DNA from: Bacteroidaceae bacterium
GTDB lineage: Bacteria; Bacteroidota; Bacteroidia; Bacteroidales; Bacteroidaceae
Length of the DNA: 6,438 nucleotides
Assembly (NCBI GenBank): GCA_017961965.1
Contig: JAGCWG010000569.1
Span: forward strand, 1-6,438
Reading direction: 5' to 3'
Part shown: positions 83 to 6,199 of the stretch, one piece after another
Layout of the letters: every line of letters begins with the position of its first letter
Numbering within the stretch: the first letter of the stretch is position 1
The notes under the pieces: model-generated
The model's database searches: none
What the model was told of the DNA's origin: nothing
Seen by the model: only the letters and a program-made list of their open reading frames with translations
Made by a program: the position numbers and the translations under genes

Positions 83-120
83 ATTCAAAATGCAAAATTC
101 AGAATTCACAATTCAGAATG
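83..120. repeat. Period-7 AT-rich tandem array (left array of repeat region 1)
   Basis: Five successive heptamers, ATTCAAA, ATGCAAA, ATTCAGA, ATTCACA and ATTCAGA, run without a register change from 83 to 117, followed by a partial ATG. The array starts three bases after the upstream stop codon (77-79). It closely resembles the array at 4438-4468, which also contains ATGCAAA units. The period of 7 is read directly from the sequence. Replication slippage is the simplest origin. Confidence 0.75.
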
Positions 121-153
121 TAAAGTTTATGAATGCCCGCAAAACCACAAATT

Positions 154-192
154 TTAATTACTTCCCTACGGTCAGTGAGACCGCTTCGCTAA
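154..192 (+). repeat. 39-bp dispersed core repeat, copy 1
   Basis: This stretch matches the reverse complement of 3361-3399 at 35 of 39 positions by direct comparison. Both copies contain an inner hairpin of CGGTC and GACCG; here the arms are 169-173 and 179-183 with loop AGTGA. The shared part ends in GAGACCGCTTCGCTAA. Heptamer arrays lie on both sides, 34 bases away on the left and directly adjacent on the right. It has the look of a REP-like or MITE-like intergenic element. I cannot name the family. Confidence 0.75.
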
Positions 193-193
193 G

Positions 194-242
194 TTCTCAA
201 CTCTCAATTCTTAACTCCTAATTCCTAATTCTTAATTCTTAA
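194..242. repeat. Period-7 AT-rich tandem array (right array of repeat region 1)
   Basis: Seven uninterrupted heptamers are present: TTCTCAA, CTCTCAA, TTCTTAA, CTCCTAA, TTCCTAA, TTCTTAA and TTCTTAA. In another register the consensus is AATTCYT. The array abuts the core repeat that ends at 192. Reverse-complemented, its units resemble those at 83-117, so the two arrays could act as imperfect inverted arms around the core. Confidence 0.75.
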
Positions 243-266
243 TTTCCATTTTTCTGCTAATTTTGA

Positions 267-294
267 ATTATGAATTATAAATTATGAAATTAAA
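267..294. repeat. Period-7 array immediately upstream of the aspS -7 box
   Basis: The heptamers ATTATGA, ATTATAA, ATTATGA and AATTAAA run in one register and end four bases before the aspS -7 promoter box at 299. The array therefore fills the place where a -33 element and any upstream promoter contacts would lie. A gain or loss of one unit would shift upstream sequence by 7 bp relative to the -7 box. Confidence 0.65.
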
Positions 295-298
295 ACGC

Positions 299-306
299 TA
301 TCTTTG
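299..306 (+). promoter_or_regulatory. aspS promoter, Bacteroidota -7 box TATCTTTG
   Basis: TATCTTTG matches the TAnnTTTG -7 consensus of the Bacteroidota primary sigma factor. No convincing TTG or TTTG is seen 19-21 bp upstream, because that interval is filled by AATTATGA-type heptamers. Transcription would be expected to begin around 311-315, leaving a leader of about 25 A-rich bases before the ATG at 337. This placement argues against any translation start upstream of 337. Confidence 0.65.
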
Positions 307-336
307 CACGGAAAATATAAATACAACAAAAAAGAT

Positions 337-2121
337 ATGTACAGATCACATACAGCAGGAGAGCTTCGCCTCTCTGATGCAGGCAAGACAGTGACTCTTG
401 CAGGATGGGTACAGCGCACACGAAAGATGGGTGCTTTGACATTCGTTGACCTTCGTGACCGCTACGGCATTACCCAGCTCGTGTTCAACGAGGAAACAAA
501 TGCCGAACTCTGCGCTGAAGCTAACAAGCTCGGACGTGAGTACGTCATTCAGGTAACTGGTGAGGTTGCTGAGCGCTACTCAAAGAACCAGAACATCCCA
601 ACTGGTGAAATCGAAATAAACGTAAACGAACTCGTCGTTCTCAACAAGTCTGTCACTCCTCCATTCACTATCGAGGACGAGAGTGACGGTGGCGACGATA
701 TCCGTATGAAATACCGTTACCTCGACCTTCGTCGTAACGCAGTACGCAAGAACCTTGAGCTTCGTCACAAGTTCTGCATCGCAGTACGCAACTACCTCTC
801 TAACCTCGGATTCCTTGAGGTTGAGACACCTATGCTCATCGGTTCTACACCAGAAGGTGCACGCGACTTCATCGTACCTTCACGCATGAACCCAGGACAG
901 TTCTATGCTCTTCCACAGTCACCTCAGACACTCAAGCAGCTCCTCATGGTAGCAGGCTTCGACCGTTACTTCCAGATTGTTAAGTGTTTCCGTGACGAGG
1001 ACCTCCGTGCTGACCGCCAGCCAGAGTTCACACAGATTGACTGTGAGATGTCATTCGTTACACAGGAGGACATCATCCAGACATTCGAGGGTATGGCAAA
1101 GCACCTCTTCAAGGAGCTTCGCGGTGTTGAACTCAACGAGCCATTCCTCCGTCTCCCATGGATTGAGTGTATGAAGCGTTTCGGTTCAGACAAGCCAGAT
1201 ATGCGTTTCGGCATGGAGTTTGTTGAGCTCAAGACTACAGGCAAGGATGGCGACGCTAATATCTTCCCAGCAGGATTCTCTGTATTCGACGAGGCTGCAT
1301 ACGTAGGTGGTATCTGCGCTACAGGCTGTGCATCATATACACGTAAGGATATCGACAAACTCACAGAGTGGGTTAAGCGTCCACAGATTGGCGCAAAGGG
1401 TCTCGTATATGCACGTGTTGCAGAGGATGGCTCAGTCAAATCTTCTGTTGACAAGTTCTATGGTCAGGACACACTCCAGGCTATCAAGGAGAAGATGAAC
1501 GCACAGCCAGGCGACCTCATCCTTATCCTCTGTGGCGACGATGCAATGAAGACACGCAAGCAGCTTTGCGAACTTCGTCTTGAGATGGGTGAGCGTCTCG
1601 GTCTCCGTGACAAGAACAAGTTTGCCCTCCTTTGGGTTACAGAGTTCCCAATGTTCGAGTGGAGCGATGAGGAAAACCGTCTCATGGCTATGCACCACCC
1701 ATTCACACATCCAATGGACGAGGATATTCCAATGCTCGACACAGACCCAGCAGCAGTACGTGCTGATGCATACGACATGGTATGTAATGGTATCGAAGTC
1801 GGTGGTGGTTCAATCCGTATCCACGACCCTAAGCTTCAGGCTAAGATGTTCGAGATTCTTGGTTTCACACCAGAGAAGGCAGAGGAGCAGTTCGGCTTCC
1901 TCATGAATGCATTCAAGTACGGTGCACCTCCTCACGGTGGTCTCGCTTACGGTCTCGACCGTTGGGTATCAATCTTCGCAGGTCTCGACTCAATCCGCGA
2001 CTGTATCGCATTCCCTAAGAACAACAGTGGACGTGATGTCATGCTCGATGCTCCATCATTCGTTGACCAGAAGCAGCTCGACGAAGACTTCATCGCAATC
2101 AATCTTCCAAAAGAGGACTAA
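337..2121 (+). CDS. aspS: Aspartyl-tRNA synthetase (class II, bacterial type)
   Basis: This cytoplasmic enzyme charges tRNA-Asp with aspartate using ATP. The product is 594 residues, close to the roughly 590 of E. coli AspRS. Domains in order: N-terminal OB-fold anticodon-binding domain (about residues 1-110, with [20 protein letters not shown] near 23-42); class II catalytic core with motif 1 around FLEVETPML (159-167), [10 protein letters not shown] (195-204) and motif 2 [16 protein letters not shown] (218-233); the bacterial GAD insertion (about 281-400); and motif 3 GLAYGLDRW (535-543). All signature residues are intact. The frame is open upstream to a TTG at 304, but that codon lies inside the -7 box, so ATG 337, which begins [11 protein letters not shown], is preferred. 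There is no Shine-Dalgarno sequence, only an A-rich leader. Codon use is strongly biased to CTC, CGT, GAC and AAG, as in a highly expressed gene. It is monocistronic, with its own promoter and terminator. Confidence 0.98.
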
Positions 2122-2125
2122 CGCT

Positions 2126-2143
2126 TTAGCCATCCTCGGCTAA
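2126..2143 (+). other. Small hairpin directly after the aspS stop
   Basis: TTAGCC (2126-2131) and GGCTAA (2138-2143) form a perfect 6-bp stem with a 6-base loop, five bases after the aspS stop codon. No T-tract follows, so it is not a terminator by itself. It could help protect the mRNA 3' end or cooperate with the stronger hairpin 18 bases downstream. Confidence 0.35.
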
Positions 2144-2160
2144 GAAACATATAAAATAAG

Positions 2161-2195
2161 GGCAGGAGGCAACATCGCTTCCTGCCTTTTCTTTT
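2161..2195 (+). terminator. Intrinsic terminator of aspS
   Basis: GGCAGGAGGC (2161-2170) pairs with GCTTCCTGCC (2177-2186) through 10 bp including one G-U, with loop AACATC, followed by TTTTCTTTT. The preceding AAG can pair with the first T residues and lengthen the stem. This is a textbook rho-independent terminator about 40 bases after the aspS stop. Confidence 0.9.
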
Positions 2196-2322
2196 CCCAT
2201 TCACCTCGGCAGAAACAGGACGGAAGACAATATTTATCACACACAAATTGCCTAATTTCTCTTTCATTATTCTAAAAACTTACTTTTTTTACTTTTTTCA
2301 ACAAAAAAAGTTTGTGGAACGC

Positions 2323-2352
2323 TTGCCAGTTCGGCAAAAGTCCTTACCTTTG
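2323..2352 (+). promoter_or_regulatory. tRNA-Lys promoter (-33 TTG, 19-bp spacer, -7 TACCTTTG)
   Basis: TTG at 2323-2325 and TACCTTTG at 2345-2352 are separated by 19 bp, matching the Bacteroidota layout of a -33 TTG/TTTG and a -7 TAnnTTTG. It is the best-formed promoter in the window, as expected for a stable RNA gene. An A/T-tract region upstream contains a possible hairpin, ACTTTTTT (2291-2298) with AAAAAAGT (2304-2311), which could act as an UP-like element; that role is inferred. The start of transcription would be near 2358-2360, leaving about 40 bases to be removed from the tRNA 5' end. Confidence 0.8.
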
Positions 2353-2397
2353 CACCGCAATTGAGAAAAACAACATAATGTAGCTCTCAACAAGCAT

Positions 2398-2470
2398 GCG
2401 TCCTTAGCTCAGCTGGTAGAGCAATTGACTCTTAATCAATGGGTCCAGGGTTCGAGCCCCTGAGGGCGTA
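2398..2470 (+). tRNA. tRNA-Lys, anticodon CUU
   Basis: The 73-nt cloverleaf is complete apart from the CCA tail. The acceptor arm is GCGTCCT (2398-2404) with AGGGCGT (2463-2469). The D arm is GCTC/GAGC with the GG of the D loop. The anticodon stem is ATTGA/TCAAT around loop CTCTTAA, with anticodon CTT at 2431-2433, which reads AAG. The variable loop is GGGTC, and the T arm is CAGGG/CCCTG around TTCGAGC. Discriminator A73 is at 2470. CCA is not encoded (CAA follows), so it must be added by the nucleotidyltransferase. Two acceptor pairs are wobbles, G1-U72 and U4-G69. It has its own promoter and terminator. Confidence 0.97.
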
Positions 2471-2471
2471 C

Positions 2472-2506
2472 AAAGAGGAGGATAACATTTGTCTTCCTCT
2501 TTTTTT
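2472..2506 (+). terminator. Intrinsic terminator of tRNA-Lys
   Basis: AAAGAGGAGGA (2472-2482) pairs with TCTTCCTCTTT (2492-2502) through 11 bp with one G-U, with a 9-base loop. The T run covers 2500-2506, four of which lie beyond the stem. It starts two bases after the tRNA 3' end and finishes 19 bases before the next start codon. The loop reads TAACATTTG, which is the -7 box pattern with one extra base. Confidence 0.85.
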
Positions 2507-2525
2507 ATACAAATAATCTAAACTA

Positions 2526-3335
2526 ATGCTCACATTCTTCAGTTTCGGAAGTGGCAGTTGTGGCAACTGCTATTACATAAGTACTGGAACCGACGCCATC
2601 CTCGTAGATGCAGGCGTGGGCATTAGGCGTTTTAAAAAGAATGTGCGTGAGTACGGACTCAACACATCCATCATCCGCGGTGTACTCATCACTCACGACC
2701 ATGCCGACCACATCAAGAACGCAGGTCTTCTGAGCAATGAATATCATATACCAGTGTATGCCACGGCACTTGTACACGAGGGAATCAACCGCAATTATCA
2801 GGTCAAGAACAAGGTGGATGCAGAACACGCCGTCAAGATTATTCCTGACGAGCAATTCGAGGTAGGCCCATTCAAGGTAACACCTTTCATCCTTCCTCAC
2901 GACGCATCCGAGAACGTAGGCTACCACATCGAGGCGGAAGACACAACGTTCACCGTGATGACTGACGTAGGTGCAGTCACTGACAACGTGAACAAGTACA
3001 TACGCCTCAGTCACAACCTCGTCATTGAGGCAAACTACGACAGCGAAATGCTGAAGCAGGGACGCTACCCTGAGATTCTCAAGCAACGTATCAGTTCTGG
3101 CAACGGACACCTTGCCAACTCCCAAACGGCAGAAGCACTCTCCGCCAACTTCCATGAGAATCTCAAACGTGTATGGCTCTGTCACCTCAGTGAGGAGAAC
3201 AATCACCCAGAACTTGCACGCAAGACAATAGATACCCATCTTCGCTCCTTCGGTATCATTGCCGGAGCAGACTACCAGTTGGAAGTGCTGAGAAGAAAGA
3301 TTCCGACAGGACCGTTCAATTTAATTAACAATTGA
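2526..3335 (+). CDS. Metallo-beta-lactamase-fold hydrolase, WalJ/YycJ-like
   Basis: A 269-residue cytoplasmic MBL-fold protein with no signal peptide. The N-terminus FFSFGSGSCGNCYYI is typical of the YycJ/WalJ group. The metal-binding motif HDHADH is at residues 57-62, with further likely ligands at His125 (PHDA), Asp147 (TDVG) and His220 (LCHLSEENNHPE). The segment GNGHLANSQ (192-200) is also characteristic. Homologues are predicted dinuclear-metal phosphodiesterases or nucleases; Bacillus WalJ is linked to cell-wall signalling and DNA replication coordination, and the Bacteroidota substrate is unknown. The start ATG 2526 directly precedes the conserved N-terminus. No TAnnTTTG promoter is seen between the tRNA terminator and this gene, so it may depend on read-through. 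The last residues, NLINN, and the stop codon lie inside an AATT heptamer repeat array, so the C-terminus has probably been remodelled by the repeat. Confidence 0.9.
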   Translation: MLTFFSFGSGSCGNCYYISTGTDAILVDAGVGIRRFKKNVREYGLNTSIIRGVLITHDHADHIKNAGLLSNEYHIPVYATALVHEGINRNYQVKNKVDAEHAVKIIPDEQFEVGPFKVTPFILPHDASENVGYHIEAEDTTFTVMTDVGAVTDNVNKYIRLSHNLVIEANYDSEMLKQGRYPEILKQRISSGNGHLANSQTAEALSANFHENLKRVWLCHLSEENNHPELARKTIDTHLRSFGIIAGADYQLEVLRRKIPTGPFNLINN

Positions 3336-3350
3336 CAATTGATAATTGAT
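3321..3350. repeat. Period-7 array overlapping the end of the MBL gene
   Basis: The units TTAATTA, ACAATTG, ACAATTG and ATAATTG run in a 7-bp register from 3321 to 3348. The first ACAATTG (3328-3334) and the next base carry the end of the MBL reading frame: the stop TGA is 3333-3335. Since 7 is not a multiple of 3, a change of unit number upstream of the stop would alter the reading frame and the C-terminal residues. Confidence 0.7.
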
Positions 3351-3360
3351 TTTTGATAAT

Positions 3361-3399
3361 TTAGCGAAGCGGTCTCTCCGACCGTAGAGAAGAAATTAA
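3361..3399 (-). repeat. 39-bp dispersed core repeat, copy 2 (inverted relative to copy 1)
   Basis: The reverse complement of this segment matches 154-192 at 35 of 39 bases. The inner hairpin CGGTC (3370-3374) and GACCG (3380-3384) is conserved, while the loop differs (TCTCC here). One mismatch to copy 1 is at the left end, one is near the middle, and two are in the hairpin loop, so the stem itself is kept. A heptamer array ends about 12 bases to the left, and a long perfect hairpin overlaps its right end. Confidence 0.75.
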
Positions 3400-3436
3400 G
3401 CCATTCGGATACGTTTAGCATCCGAATGGCTTAATT
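3394..3436. terminator. Perfect 17-bp inverted repeat, likely bidirectional terminator
   Basis: AATTAAGCCATTCGGAT (3394-3410) and ATCCGAATGGCTTAATT (3420-3436) are exact reverse complements, separated by the 9-base loop ACGTTTAGC. The AT-rich outer arms on both sides could supply U-rich 3' ends in either direction (TTAATTATTATT follows on the + strand). It is the only plausible terminator for the MBL gene, 58 bases after its stop. The T-tract is weak compared with the aspS and tRNA terminators. A regulatory palindrome or part of the mobile-looking repeat is an alternative. Confidence 0.6.
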
Positions 3437-3449
3437 ATTATTCGCCACT

Positions 3450-3491
3450 CACTATCAATTCCTCATTCCACATTCCTAATTCCTAATTGTA
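3450..3491. repeat. Period-7 array upstream of the GT5-like gene
   Basis: The heptamers CACTATC, AATTCCT, CATTCCA, CATTCCT, AATTCCT and AATTGTA follow each other in register. The units are nearly the same as those in the right array of region 1 (AATTCCT, AATTCTT). This array closes repeat region 2, which has the same plan as region 1: array, core with hairpin, array. Confidence 0.7.
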
Positions 3492-3557
3492 AAAAAGTTA
3501 AATTTCCTCAATTTTTACCCAAATAACATTCTATAAATCTTAATTATACTGAAAAGC

Positions 3558-3590
3558 TTGCATATTTGTCATATTTTTTATATATCTTTG
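3558..3590 (+). promoter_or_regulatory. Promoter of the GT5-like gene (-7 box TATCTTTG)
   Basis: TATCTTTG at 3583-3590 fits the TAnnTTTG box exactly. A TTG at 3558-3560 lies 22 bp upstream, slightly longer than the usual 19-21 bp. A TTTG at 3565-3568 is too close, at 14 bp. Transcription would start near 3596-3598, giving a leader of roughly 20 bases before ATG 3616. Confidence 0.65.
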
Positions 3591-3615
3591 CATAACTTTT
3601 CGTAAAATTTCGACA

Positions 3616-4437
3616 ATGAAGGCAAAGAAAATATTATTCATCACACAGGAAATGGTTCCATTCGTGCCAGAGAGTCCAAAGGCCCTCATGGGACGATACC
3701 TTCCTCAGGCAATACAAGACAGAAAGCACGAAATCAGAACCTTCACTCCTAAGTGGGGTATCATCAATGAACGTCGCAACCAGTTGCACGAGGTTATCCG
3801 CCTCTCTGGTATGAACCTCATCATCGACGAGACTGACCATCCGCTCATCGTCAAGGTTGCCTCTCTTCAGGCTGCGCACATGCAGATTTACTTCATCGAC
3901 AACGATGACTACTTCATGAAGCGCGACATGACTACCGATGCTGAAGGCAACGAGTACGATGACAACGGCGAAAGAGCCATCTTCTACGCTCGTGGCGTAC
4001 TTGAGACTGTCAAGAAGCTCCGCTGGGTACCAGATGTAATCCACTGTCACGGATGGATTTCTGCCCTTGCGCCACTATACATCAAGAAGGCATACAAGGA
4101 TGAGCCATCATTCTGTGACAGCAAGGTAGTGTTCTCCGTTTCTGCAGGCGACTTCAAGAACGACCTCGGTAAGCACAGCCTTGAGTGCATCCCATTCAAG
4201 GAAGCCGTGATGGAAGACCTCACAGACGTGTGCGGCGATAAGTTCGGCTATACAGAACTTGCCAAGCTTGCCACTAAGTTCTCCGACGGTATCATCCTCG
4301 AAGACCCTAATGTCGATCCATCTATCGTGGAATATGCCAAGGCAAACAACATCCCTGTACTCGACTACGTAGAAGGCGATGCATTCAAGGATGCCTACGA
4401 CGCATTCTACGAGACTGTGATGGGAGGAGAAGAATAA
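3616..4437 (+). CDS. Glycogen/starch synthase-like protein, N-terminal GT5 half only, catalytic residues missing
   Basis: A 273-residue cytoplasmic protein related to the N-terminal Rossmann domain of glycogen synthase GlgA (about 480 residues in full). Seen: KKILFITQEMVPFV at 4-17 matches the first strand of GlgA, and WVPDVIHCHGWISALAPLYI (137-156) matches the GlgA segment containing HAHDWHAGLAP. The family's ADP-glucose motif KxGG is replaced here by PESP (18-21). The position of E. coli Asp21 is Leu24, and the position of catalytic His161 is Ile148. The whole C-terminal domain, which would carry the Lys305 and Glu377 equivalents, is absent. I infer it is not a working glycosyltransferase and may bind a ligand or partner. 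Nothing suggests recent decay: the frame is clean, the codon bias matches its neighbours and the promoter is good. It probably shares a transcript with the DUF4270 gene 96 bp downstream. Annotation pipelines usually call it glycogen synthase, which overstates the evidence. Confidence 0.85.
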   Translation: MKAKKILFITQEMVPFVPESPKALMGRYLPQAIQDRKHEIRTFTPKWGIINERRNQLHEVIRLSGMNLIIDETDHPLIVKVASLQAAHMQIYFIDNDDYFMKRDMTTDAEGNEYDDNGERAIFYARGVLETVKKLRWVPDVIHCHGWISALAPLYIKKAYKDEPSFCDSKVVFSVSAGDFKNDLGKHSLECIPFKEAVMEDLTDVCGDKFGYTELAKLATKFSDGIILEDPNVDPSIVEYAKANNIPVLDYVEGDAFKDAYDAFYETVMGGEE

Positions 4438-4468
4438 ATTAAAAATGCAAAATTCAAGATGCAAAATG
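4438..4468. repeat. Period-7 array directly after the GT5-like stop codon
   Basis: ATTAAAA, ATGCAAA, ATTCAAG, ATGCAAA and a final ATG begin on the base after the stop codon TAA (4435-4437). The units match those of 83-117. No terminator hairpin with a T-tract lies between this gene and the next, consistent with co-transcription. A short TTCCC/GGGAA stem (4472-4476 with 4488-4492) is all that is seen. Confidence 0.7.
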
Positions 4469-4490
4469 CTGTTCCCTGTCAAGTGATGGG

Positions 4491-4533
4491 AATTGAATAA
4501 TTTTGATTATTGAATTCTAAATTATTAATTTAA
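4491..4533. repeat. Period-7 array ending at the DUF4270 start codon
   Basis: AATTGAA, TAATTTT and GATTATT are followed, after a one-base shift, by AATTCTA (4513-4519), AATTATT (4520-4526) and AATTTAA (4527-4533). The next base is the A of the ATG. The array therefore makes up the ribosome-loading region of the DUF4270 gene. It also contains TAATTTTG (4498-4505), which fits the TAnnTTTG promoter box; no -33 element is seen, so an internal promoter is only a weak possibility. Confidence 0.6.
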
Positions 4534-5925
4534 ATGTATTGGAAACAATTAATTGCTTTAATCACAGCAAGCATAGCGTTCGTATCATGCGATGACAACA
4601 CGTCAACGCTCGGTATGGACATGATACCAGCATCTGACCTCGTAACCAAGACATACAGGACTTACGAAGTCAAGACATCATCATTCGCAGTAGGCGACTC
4701 TGTGCTCTCACGCACAAGTACATCCTACTTCGGACAGTACACCGACCCTATAACCAGCTCAACCGTGAAGAGCGACTTCCTCTCACAGTTCAACAGCCCT
4801 ATGCACAAGGTTGAAGGCACATTGGTGGGCGACACAGCATTCTCCACAAGCATCGTACTGACCATCGATAAGTTCGTAGGCGACTCACTCGCACCACTCA
4901 GCGTCGAGGTATATGAACTTGACTCACTTCTCGATGCCAACAAGGATTACTACACCAACATCGACCCTTCAAAGTTCATCAAGAAGGGAGCAAAGCCTGT
5001 TGGCGTGGCACGCTTCACTGCATCCGACCGTTCACTCGCTGACACCACACGCCAGCGTTACCATACAAACGGAATTAAACAGGTGACCATACCCCTCAAC
5101 AACGAGATTGGCACAAGCATCATCAAGGCAGTAAGCCAAGACCCAACACTCACAGAGCCAGAGAACTGGCACAAGAGTGGCGTAAGAGGCAGCAAAGGCT
5201 TCTACTTCAAGTTGAGCAGTGGCGACGGAGCTATGTTCTACATCAGCAGTAGCTACATTTACATTCCATACATGGCAAAGCAGGAAGATGGAGATATAGA
5301 CACTCTCTACAACATCCTTGAGGGAACAGAAGAAGTGGTACAGGCATCACGCTTCGAGTCACACAATATCGAGGCTCTCATGAAAGATACTGATGCAACA
5401 TATCTCAAGTGTCCAGCAGGTGTATTCACAATGGCAGAACTGCCAATCGACAGCATCAGCGCAAACGACACCATCAACTCAGCATCCATCAAGTTCACAC
5501 GCTACAACGATGATGCAGAGACGCTCAACAAGATTGACAAGCAGTATCGCCTCGGTGTTCCTACCACTGTACTCTTGGTACGTTATGATGACTACATCAA
5601 CGGTTTCTTCGAGAGCTACAAGCTGGCTGACAACGTGACATCATATCTCACAACATTCAATGCGAGCACCAACAGTTACACGTTCAACAACATATCACGT
5701 CTCATCACAACCATGCTTCAGGAAAAGAAGAATGGTACAGCCACAGCCAACTGCAACAAGGTACTCATCATCCCTGTTGAGACGACCACAGTACAGGCAA
5801 GCGCCTACTCTGCAGAAACCGTGGTAAAGATAAACCACGACTTCAGTATGAAGAGCGCTCGTCTCGTAGGCGGAAAGGACGGAGGTGTCCAGATTGAAGT
5901 GATTTACAGCAGATTCATAAGATAA
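4534..5925 (+). CDS. DUF4270-like lipoprotein
   Basis: A 463-residue predicted lipoprotein. The N-terminus MYWKQLIALITASIAFVSC has a short basic start, a hydrophobic stretch and a Cys at residue 19 followed by DDN. Signal peptidase II cleavage before Cys19 is expected, and the acidic residues after Cys resemble surface-export signals of Bacteroidota lipoproteins. The mature start, DDNTSTLG, and the early pattern SYFGQYTDPITSSTVKSDFLSQF (about residues 64-86) are what I associate with DUF4270 proteins, a family of unknown function found in Bacteroidota. The rest is rich in Ser, Thr, Asn and Asp with alternating beta-strand patterns, suggesting an extracytoplasmic beta-rich protein. There are no catalytic motifs I recognise and no other membrane segments. 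ATG 4534 is the only start that gives the signal sequence. It lies 96 bp after the GT5-like gene and is probably co-transcribed with it. A terminator follows. Confidence 0.85.
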   Translation: MYWKQLIALITASIAFVSCDDNTSTLGMDMIPASDLVTKTYRTYEVKTSSFAVGDSVLSRTSTSYFGQYTDPITSSTVKSDFLSQFNSPMHKVEGTLVGDTAFSTSIVLTIDKFVGDSLAPLSVEVYELDSLLDANKDYYTNIDPSKFIKKGAKPVGVARFTASDRSLADTTRQRYHTNGIKQVTIPLNNEIGTSIIKAVSQDPTLTEPENWHKSGVRGSKGFYFKLSSGDGAMFYISSSYIYIPYMAKQEDGDIDTLYNILEGTEEVVQASRFESHNIEALMKDTDATYLKCPAGVFTMAELPIDSISANDTINSASIKFTRYNDDAETLNKIDKQYRLGVPTTVLLVRYDDYINGFFESYKLADNVTSYLTTFNASTNSYTFNNISRLITTMLQEKKNGTATANCNKVLIIPVETTTVQASAYSAETVVKINHDFSMKSARLVGGKDGGVQIEVIYSRFIR

Positions 5926-5945
5926 GTGAAGAGTGAAAAGTGAAA
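5925..5945. repeat. Three AGTGAAR heptamers starting in the DUF4270 stop codon
   Basis: AGTGAAG, AGTGAAA and AGTGAAA follow each other exactly. The first A is the last base of the stop codon TAA (5923-5925). The unit differs from the AATT heptamers elsewhere but shares the 7-bp period and the position at a gene boundary. The last units can pair imperfectly with TTTTACTTTT about 10 bases downstream. Confidence 0.6.
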
Positions 5946-5986
5946 AAAATATTTTACTTTTTCGATGACTTATCAAAAAACAATAT

Positions 5987-6021
5987 AAGTGGAATGGCAG
6001 TTTAGTCATTCCACTTTTTTT
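5987..6021 (+). terminator. Intrinsic terminator after the DUF4270 gene
   Basis: AAGTGGAATG (5987-5996) and CATTCCACTT (6007-6016) form a perfect 10-bp stem around a 10-base loop, followed by TTTTT to 6021. This ends the likely GT5-like/DUF4270 transcription unit, 62 bases after the stop. Confidence 0.9.
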
Positions 6022-6162
6022 ATACTATCATCTTCCAAAACAGCGATAGAGAGCCCTCGCCACATCCTGAAATATAGGGATTTGGGGTAGGTCATGGAGC
6101 ACTTGTTTTCTTTTGTCCTATCATTTAACGAAAAAATGCACTCATAATTATATAATAGTTCG

Positions 6163-6170
6163 TATTTTTG
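6163..6170 (+). promoter_or_regulatory. Promoter box TATTTTTG for the last gene
   Basis: TATTTTTG matches TAnnTTTG and is followed by CAG, giving a predicted transcription start near 6176-6178 and a leader of about 23 bases to ATG 6200. No TTG is present at the expected -33 distance, which may mean an activator is needed. The rest of 6022-6162 holds no ORF, RNA gene or repeat that I can support. Confidence 0.5.
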
Positions 6171-6199
6171 CAGTTATTCCTATACTAATAAAAATAATT

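Follow-up and report, generated by a model that had tools for sequence, protein, structure and literature searches.

Period-7 AT-rich arrays at gene edges of a Bacteroidaceae contig and its relatives: possible arms of a dispersed intergenic element

Heptad arrays in the window

The window, a whole stretch of 6,438 nucleotides from a rumen Bacteroidaceae bacterium (contig JAGCWG010000569.1 of assembly GCA_017961965.1, forward strand), carries aspS (337-2121), a tRNA-Lys gene, the genes of an MBL-fold protein, a GT5-domain protein and a DUF4270 protein, and parts of two others. Between these genes lie AT-rich tandem arrays of seven-base units (heptads), which are the subject of this study. A sequence-only reading had placed eight such arrays against gene ends and outside coding interiors, and Tandem Repeats Finder (TRF) bore this out: eight arrays of period 7 or 14 were detected, each matching the earlier position within a few bases, and none was found by TRF inside the genes of the window. 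Their positions relative to the stops at 77-79, 3333-3335, 4435-4437 and 5923-5925 and the ATG at 4534 were also as described. With the six intergenic regions pooled, identity at lag 7 was 0.377 versus 0.287 in dinucleotide shuffles (z 6.8), and z was 4.4 at lag 14 and 3.4 at lag 8; the genes gave a z of -0.5 at lag 7. By this measure two regions were strong (80-336, z 7.3; 4438-4533, z 4.5) and two were weak (3336-3615, z 2.1; 5926-6199, z 1.9), the array at 3322 lying partly within the MBL gene. The aspS/tRNA region (2122-2397) gave 1.3 and 2472-2525 gave -0.6. A search of the window with Rfam at gathering scores matched the tRNA only.

Upstream of aspS, a left arm on the plus strand (82-119; TRF period 7, score 48) begins 3 nt past the stop at 77-79 and is purine-leaning (0.58). 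It is followed by an array on the minus strand (194-244; period 7, score 60), pyrimidine-rich on the plus strand (0.27 purine), and by an array without assigned strand (259-294, TRF 259-288; 0.58 purine) directly 5' of the aspS -7 box, TATCTTTG (299-306, plus strand), which matches the Bacteroidetes -7 consensus TAnnTTTG. At the MBL-GT5 junction, a left arm on the plus strand (3322-3361; period 7, score 45) runs over the MBL stop with purines and pyrimidines in balance (0.50), adjoined by a copy of a dispersed palindromic micro-element (3363-3392, plus strand). Next come a core hairpin, GCCATTCGG/CCGAATGGC, with perfect 17-bp arms (3394-3436), and a right arm on the minus strand (3450-3491; 0.31 purine on the plus strand), which TRF scored as period 7 over 32 bp (3457-3488, score 43). 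Between the GT5 and DUF4270 genes, a purine-rich left arm (4436-4469, plus strand; 0.68; periods 7 and 14) abuts the GT5 stop, and a balanced right arm (4491-4533; 0.49; TRF 4506-4541, period 14), predicted to pair with it, abuts the DUF4270 ATG. The last left arm (5924-5946, plus strand; period 7, score 39) starts in the DUF4270 stop and is purine-rich (0.87). Its units are of the AAGTGAA type, and the form AATTnnn proposed from the sequence for most arrays was therefore too narrow; the units of the relatives follow the grammar A-R-T-K-N-R-N.

Spread, grammar and layout among related genomes

The closest relatives, found through the GT5 gene, were two rumen metagenome-assembled genomes (MAGs), G001 and G002, with 94% protein identity (loci L001 and L002). 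The motif of four tandem AATTN3 units was matched 221 times in G001 and 197 times in G002 and was present in 12 of 14 relatives' genomes, while a period-6 version was found in 0/14 and a period-8 version in 3/14 (15 matches). In a sample of the phylum, 124 of 296 genomes had at least one match, in very unequal numbers with G001 highest; in the genus of G001 it was 42 of 45. A scan free of any motif over 882 kb of four genomes of relatives gave 112 period-7 segments versus 1 in Markov sequence, so the signal exceeded random expectation in the way the earlier reading had proposed to check, and 93 of the 112 were mostly intergenic. Other periods were fewer: periods 8, 10 and 11 gave 63, 39 and 64 versus 144 for period 7 in G001 and G002, and 14, 4 and 3 versus 105 in G336. 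Among ten more distant genomes, G180 showed by eye at least three inverted array pairs 14-45 bp apart. Degenerate arrays of period 8 (GAGTTTTT/AAAAACTC) and of period 10-11 (GGAGTTAAAAA) also formed the two arms of intergenic palindromes (L103, L111, L123, L160 and other G001/G002 regions), and the heptads before aspS in the window correspond in position to a period-8 stretch of L002.

In 246 of 276 arrays the consensus unit matched A-R-T-K-N-R-N at each of its five fixed positions (137/145 in G001 and G002, 109/131 in G333 and G336), versus 26.5% of random AT-rich heptamers given the same choice of rotation and strand; the test was not blind, the grammar having been derived from a smaller subset of the same arrays. 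Positions 1 and 3 were almost fixed, and position 7 was the most variable within arrays (0.206 and 0.135). Mismatch columns within arrays were uneven (z 10), but this value is inflated by duplicated variants and was not counted towards selection. Array lengths peaked at 30-35 bp (95/211 in G001 and G002, 82/233 in G333 and G336), where the detector run on uniform lengths gave about 15%. The peak was found in both genome pairs and in both contexts, arrays away from promoters also lying near 32 bp, and the typical block of about 32 bp corresponds to about four and a half heptads. The open-ended, decaying length distribution of a slippage microsatellite was thus not what was found. The motif GCCAT[TC]CGG, with one mismatch allowed, occurred within 60 nt on the inner side of 28 of 293 arrays (background 2.0%), and the core hairpin at 3394-3436 contains it.

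Among neighbouring arrays no more than 200 bp apart in the relatives, 55 pairs faced outward, 1 inward and 21 ran in the same direction. Both arms had a median length of 32 bp and the core a median of 40 bp, nine pairs being only 2 bp apart. In 32 of the 55 pairs the units of the two arms agreed at 6-7 of 7 positions (control 24.8%), and the mean agreement was higher than in all 2000 permutations. Predicted RNA folds of four window regions were more stable than their shuffles (z -5.6, -3.2, -2.6 and -6.5); 4436-4536 was predicted as a single hairpin from stop to start, and in 3316-3495 the energy came mainly from the core hairpin, with the two arms not paired to each other. Left/right complementarity exceeded cross-region controls in tandem regions, and convergent array regions (n 7) showed no excess; 5 of the 109 array regions had too few controls for this test. 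At a score of at least 15, self-complementarity was 12.4% versus 0.6% in regions without arrays and 22.1% versus 9.4% in array regions. Hairpin arms as a rule for all arrays were rejected, self-complementarity not being specific to array regions.

In the relatives, 59 of 151 arrays had a gene 3' end no more than 15 nt away, versus 24.5±3.9 expected under uniform placement in the same region; at 5' ends there was no significant excess (24/127 versus 18.9±3.5). The non-random placement at gene ends proposed for the window was accordingly confirmed at 3' ends only, 5' ends being near chance. Convergent regions, where no promoter limits placement, had 17 arrays at stops versus 7.2±1.9 expected, and G336 alone had 29/77 versus 16.1±2.7. 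The arrays often span or directly follow the stop codon of the preceding gene, which matters for annotation; 39 of them start inside the end of that gene. In the window, the final residues of the MBL protein are encoded by the array at 3322-3335, and the MBL protein of L002 ends earlier at the same place. Within 30 nt of a gene edge, left arrays were purine-rich (37:8) and right arrays pyrimidine-rich (49:5), the array-free background near stops and starts being 0.52-0.53 purine. Farther than 30 nt from the edge the rule was gone in G001 and G002 (purine:pyrimidine 6:8 on the left, 7:10 on the right). In the window it is obeyed by the left arrays at 82, 4436 and 5924 and the right arrays at 194 and 3450. 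Of 67 arrays after a stop, 53 carried stop codons in every frame on the sense strand and 33 did so on the opposite strand.

Promoter arrays, turnover and the micro-element

TAnnTTTG is the Bacteroides -7 consensus (PMC4747536). Facing a start and no more than 22 nt after an array, it was found in 18/83 cases in G336, 15/59 in G333 and 9/123 in G001 and G002, versus 3.8, 3.5 and 3.8 expected; G333 and G336 together gave 33/142 versus 7.3. The 41 promoter arrays were 32.1±2.4 bp long and 37 of them started 36-43 nt before the box. Their phase to the box was non-random (P 0.007 for 35 promoters, near-identical ones removed; Rayleigh test about 0.0015 with 37 cases that include the sister genomes), and their words varied by locus (AATTCCT, AACTCTC, CACTTTT, AATTGTC and others). 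The aspS array of the window matches this pattern, its 5' edge lying 40 nt before the box at 299-306. Antisense promoters at stop-abutting arrays were rejected as a general account, a -7 box being found in 3/109 versus 0.6 expected. In the divergent regions of L235, L238, L250, L253 and L268, several array promoters have a similar core of the TTTTTCnnnGAAAAAG / GAAnnGCAAAnAA type between the two arms, as if a whole divergent-promoter cassette had been dispersed.

The sister genomes G333 and G336 were 97.2% identical over 3.2 kb. Half of their 68 orthologous regions were aligned, 13 with arrays, and the other 34 were dropped (less than 100 bp with flanks or less than 85% identity); a first ortholog set from G001 and G002, of 10 region pairs, was too small for use. 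Indels inside arrays measured 1, 7, 7, 7, 14, 14, 21, 29 and 33 bp, so that 6 of 9 were multiples of 7, versus 0 of 29 outside arrays (Fisher p 3e-5). Substitutions reached 6.8% in arrays (39/570) and 3.8% outside (263/6936). In two divergent promoter regions the word of an arm differed between the sister genomes, in one case with no change of length (AATTCCT to AACTCTA, L238|10 versus L253|1). Slippage, one of the two origins suggested from the window, was thus supported, and the view that the arrays are only old was not, since the sisters differ by 7, 14 and 21 bp. The other suggestion, selection on spacing rather than sequence, was supported in part, by the peak near 32 bp, the equal-length word swap and the non-random phase to the -7 box, any functional need for the spacing being putative.

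Turnover was also seen at the loci of the window. The MBL-GT5 junction was just 84-107 bp long in 17 of 32 relatives' rows (13 of 25 distinct sequences). An extra block adjoins the MBL stop in the window, L001 and L002, and L010 and L021 have other short arrays. Upstream of aspS, arrays were found in the window and L001, and L002 differs. Between the GT5 and DUF4270 genes, L001 and L002 share 154 bp that are 98% identical, with CCCCCAAAGGGGG-type ends, where the window has 96 bp of heptads (4438-4533), although over the upstream region the window is nearer to L001. One match among the Bacteroidales, L043 (JAMPGY010000002.1), is titled Clostridium sp. with 64% identity to the GT5-domain protein and is possibly a mislabelled MAG.

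The micro-element has an AGCGAAGCGGTCTCnnTGACCGYAGGGAAG-like consensus, and the window holds a second copy at 161-190 on the minus strand besides that at 3363-3392. In the window and about 1.44 Mb of relatives there were 25 copies (G001 12, G002 11, window 2, G004 and G007 0), among them those at L116, L136, L138, L169, L189, L193 and L195. It adjoined a period-7 array in 16 of 25 cases versus 16% of 1070 random intergenic places, and by eye it often lay within an array, with heptads in register on either side. The MBL-GT5 junction of L002 corresponds to an empty site, without a counterpart of the copy at 3363-3392, and AA flanks the insert on both sides in the window and L001. The micro-element is repetitive extragenic palindromic (REP)-like.

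Origin of the arrays and likeness to known heptamer repeats

We consider it about an even chance that the arrays are slippage-renewed heptad arms of an intergenic element that is dispersed, non-coding and roughly palindromic and is bounded by gene edges or promoter boxes. Such an element would consist of blocks of about 32 bp (four to five heptads, with A-R-T-K-N-R-N on the purine strand), often as outward inverted pairs with a core of mostly 30-60 bp between them, and would lie after a stop codon and before the next functional boundary, a -7 box or a start codon. Replication slippage in 7-nt steps would renew the units of each arm and make them uniform, and as a result the words of arms at separate loci would come to differ. 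At gene edges, purifying selection would act as a filter on position and orientation, and orientation may thus arise partly from selection at gene ends, where purine orientation after a stop would supply stop codons in all frames. The arms are called slippage-renewed because slippage is expected to give indels of whole units, similar units inside each block and words that vary from block to block; they are called arms of palindromes bounded by edges because the typical length, the outward orientation and the pairing are not expected from slippage. A role, if there is one, is expected to be structural and not a sequence-specific code: the arrays would separate transcription units as a spacer or hairpin, and would form the AT-rich upstream part of promoters in some lineages.

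Several observations weigh against this proposal. The two arms change independently in the sister genomes, and the second arm of L235|3 kept its word. The peak at 30-35 bp was not clear in a small set (9/36) nor in G004 (13/38). Just 77 neighbouring pairs were available, many arrays are unpaired at distances of up to 200 bp, 23 of the 55 outward pairs lack a common unit, and intergenic self-complementarity is not specific to array-bearing regions. The excess at stops was weak in G333 (15/47 versus 11.7±2.0). Farther than 30 nt from the edge the orientation rule persisted in G336 (13:6 on the left, 3:13 on the right) and G333 (13:2, 1:8), where pure edge selection predicts otherwise. In the window, the arrays at 3322 and 4491 are balanced in purines, and that at 259-294 is weakly purine (0.58) though on the right side and forms an inward pair with 194-244. 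Furthermore, genes were called by a simple longest open reading frame rule, and the sister genomes are non-independent samples.

Neutral heptanucleotide microsatellites, slippage arrays that accumulate where they are harmless and imply neither an element nor a function, retain an appreciable though minor probability. They would account for the unit-sized indels, the raised substitution in arrays, the mostly intergenic segments and the very unequal numbers across the phylum sample, and the orientation at edges could arise by selection alone; however, the length peak near 32 bp, the outward-to-inward ratio of 55:1, the unit words common to two arms, the abutment on stops in convergent regions as well and the single grammar of nearly all arrays run counter to them. 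Spread by a transposase, as mobile elements of the REP type or miniature inverted-repeat transposable elements (MITEs) with heptad-array inverted ends, seems improbable. The arrays are dispersed with inverted ends, some share a core motif, and the block by the MBL stop has been added relative to the short regions of the relatives, but the end words differ among copies, where a MITE would have terminal inverted repeats common to its copies, and a clean empty/filled site with target duplication was not seen for the arrays; only the micro-element inside them has an empty site.

It is quite improbable that the arrays in general are promoter or regulator platforms, in which heptads phased 5' of the -7 box would act as an UP-like element or as a platform for binding, selection acting on spacing rather than sequence. 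The excess of -7 boxes, the narrow range of array starts, the phase coherence, the equal-length word swap and the aspS promoter of the window all agree with such a use, yet 109 of 142 arrays in G333 and G336 and 114 of 123 in G001 and G002 have no -7 box, gene 3' ends show the strongest excess, stop-abutting arrays lack antisense boxes, arrays away from promoters peak near 32 bp too, and orthologous promoters of sisters are not independent. RNA hairpins for termination or processing, whose arms would pair in transcripts and set gene 3' ends, appear the least probable of these explanations. The folds of the four window regions, the single hairpin at 4436-4536 and the complementarity in tandem regions are consistent with them; the core-dominated fold of 3316-3495 with its unpaired arms, the self-complementarity of array-free regions, the lack of excess in convergent array regions and the independent change of arms in sisters are not.

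Among known heptamer repeats, the likeness to those of Xanthomonas is taken from the description in PMC4692102. That description counts 186 GGGAATC-type arrays in one genome and 183 in another; most have four units, and they are mostly intergenic and near gene ends, occur as inverted pairs in 70 and 75 cases, and have the G-rich strand downstream on the coding strand or upstream on the non-coding strand; it also names a Nostoc repeat, GGGGA(C/T)T. Like these (GGGANTN)n repeats, the arrays studied here are dispersed tandem heptads, mostly intergenic, with a block size close to the four-unit norm in two genome pairs, with close inverted pairs and with a like strand orientation in the relatives, which in the window itself is mixed. 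Unlike them, their units are AT-rich, with many words under one grammar, and divergent promoter regions, under-represented in Xanthomonas, are used in G333 and G336. The authors of PMC4692102 noted that four units match the requirement of a G-quadruplex and reported no function. In our arrays GGG tracts were rare (any in 2/151 in G001 and G002 and 37/151 in G333 and G336; four tracts in 0/151 and 6/151), so G-quadruplexes cannot be the general cause here; at least four GG tracts were present in 8 arrays of G001 and G002 and 44 of G333 and G336, and weaker two-layer G structures may form in the latter pair.

The TAACTGA direct repeats of Beggiatoaceae, Cyanobacteria and five Bacteroidetes (PMC4679880) are likewise intergenic heptads, with 7-nt indels between close Cyanothece strains and mixed heptamers in some Bacteroidetes. 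In the account of that paper, however, their word is fixed, they lie in the main genome mostly shortly before start codons, and one inverted repeat occurs in 170 sets; here the units follow A-R-T-K-N-R-N, 5' ends show no significant excess and 55 of the 77 neighbouring pairs are outward. Heptanucleotides were the commonest class of long simple sequence repeats in many bacteria, with polymerase slippage proposed (Mrazek et al. 2007, as cited in PMC4679880, PMC4692102 and PMC4060949), and the typical block length, pairing and orientation set the present arrays apart from such open-ended repeats. The BrickBuilt MITE of Porphyromonas gingivalis (PMC4596501) is, as described there, also a tandem repeat within an intergenic inverted-repeat element of the Bacteroidales, but its unit is 23 nt of one sequence in 19 copies. 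Our arrays are an AT-rich, many-worded form of the heptamer-repeat kind and not a member of the G-rich family. Among the papers listed in literature searches on heptamers and intergenic repeats of this group, from which most subscription journals were absent, none dealt with them. The sequence-only reading, which had pointed to spacing and knew of no named family, had not seen the orientation, the inverted pairing, the common unit grammar or the described relatives (PMC4692102, PMC4679880), and its interpretation was partly supported.

PMC4692102 and PMC4679880 leave open why the longer repeats of bacteria so often have seven-base units, a question that can be tested in a clade with more than 100 arrays per Mb, one grammar, unit-sized indels between sisters and a typical block size. 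The similar layout of AT-rich blocks that lack GGG tracts weakens the G-quadruplex account of four-unit blocks. There is agreement in block size, orientation and pairing between the AT-rich arrays of Bacteroidota and the G-rich arrays of Xanthomonas, and on this ground we tentatively raise the rather unlikely idea that heptad blocks of about four units, with purines outward and frequently in inverted pairs, belong to a single class of intergenic module that is widespread in bacteria and that a shared 7-nt process makes or keeps. If this were true, the four-unit size would not be caused by G-quadruplex formation, and the missing part would be an unrecognised enzyme or replication step that lays down or holds about 30 bp of heptads.

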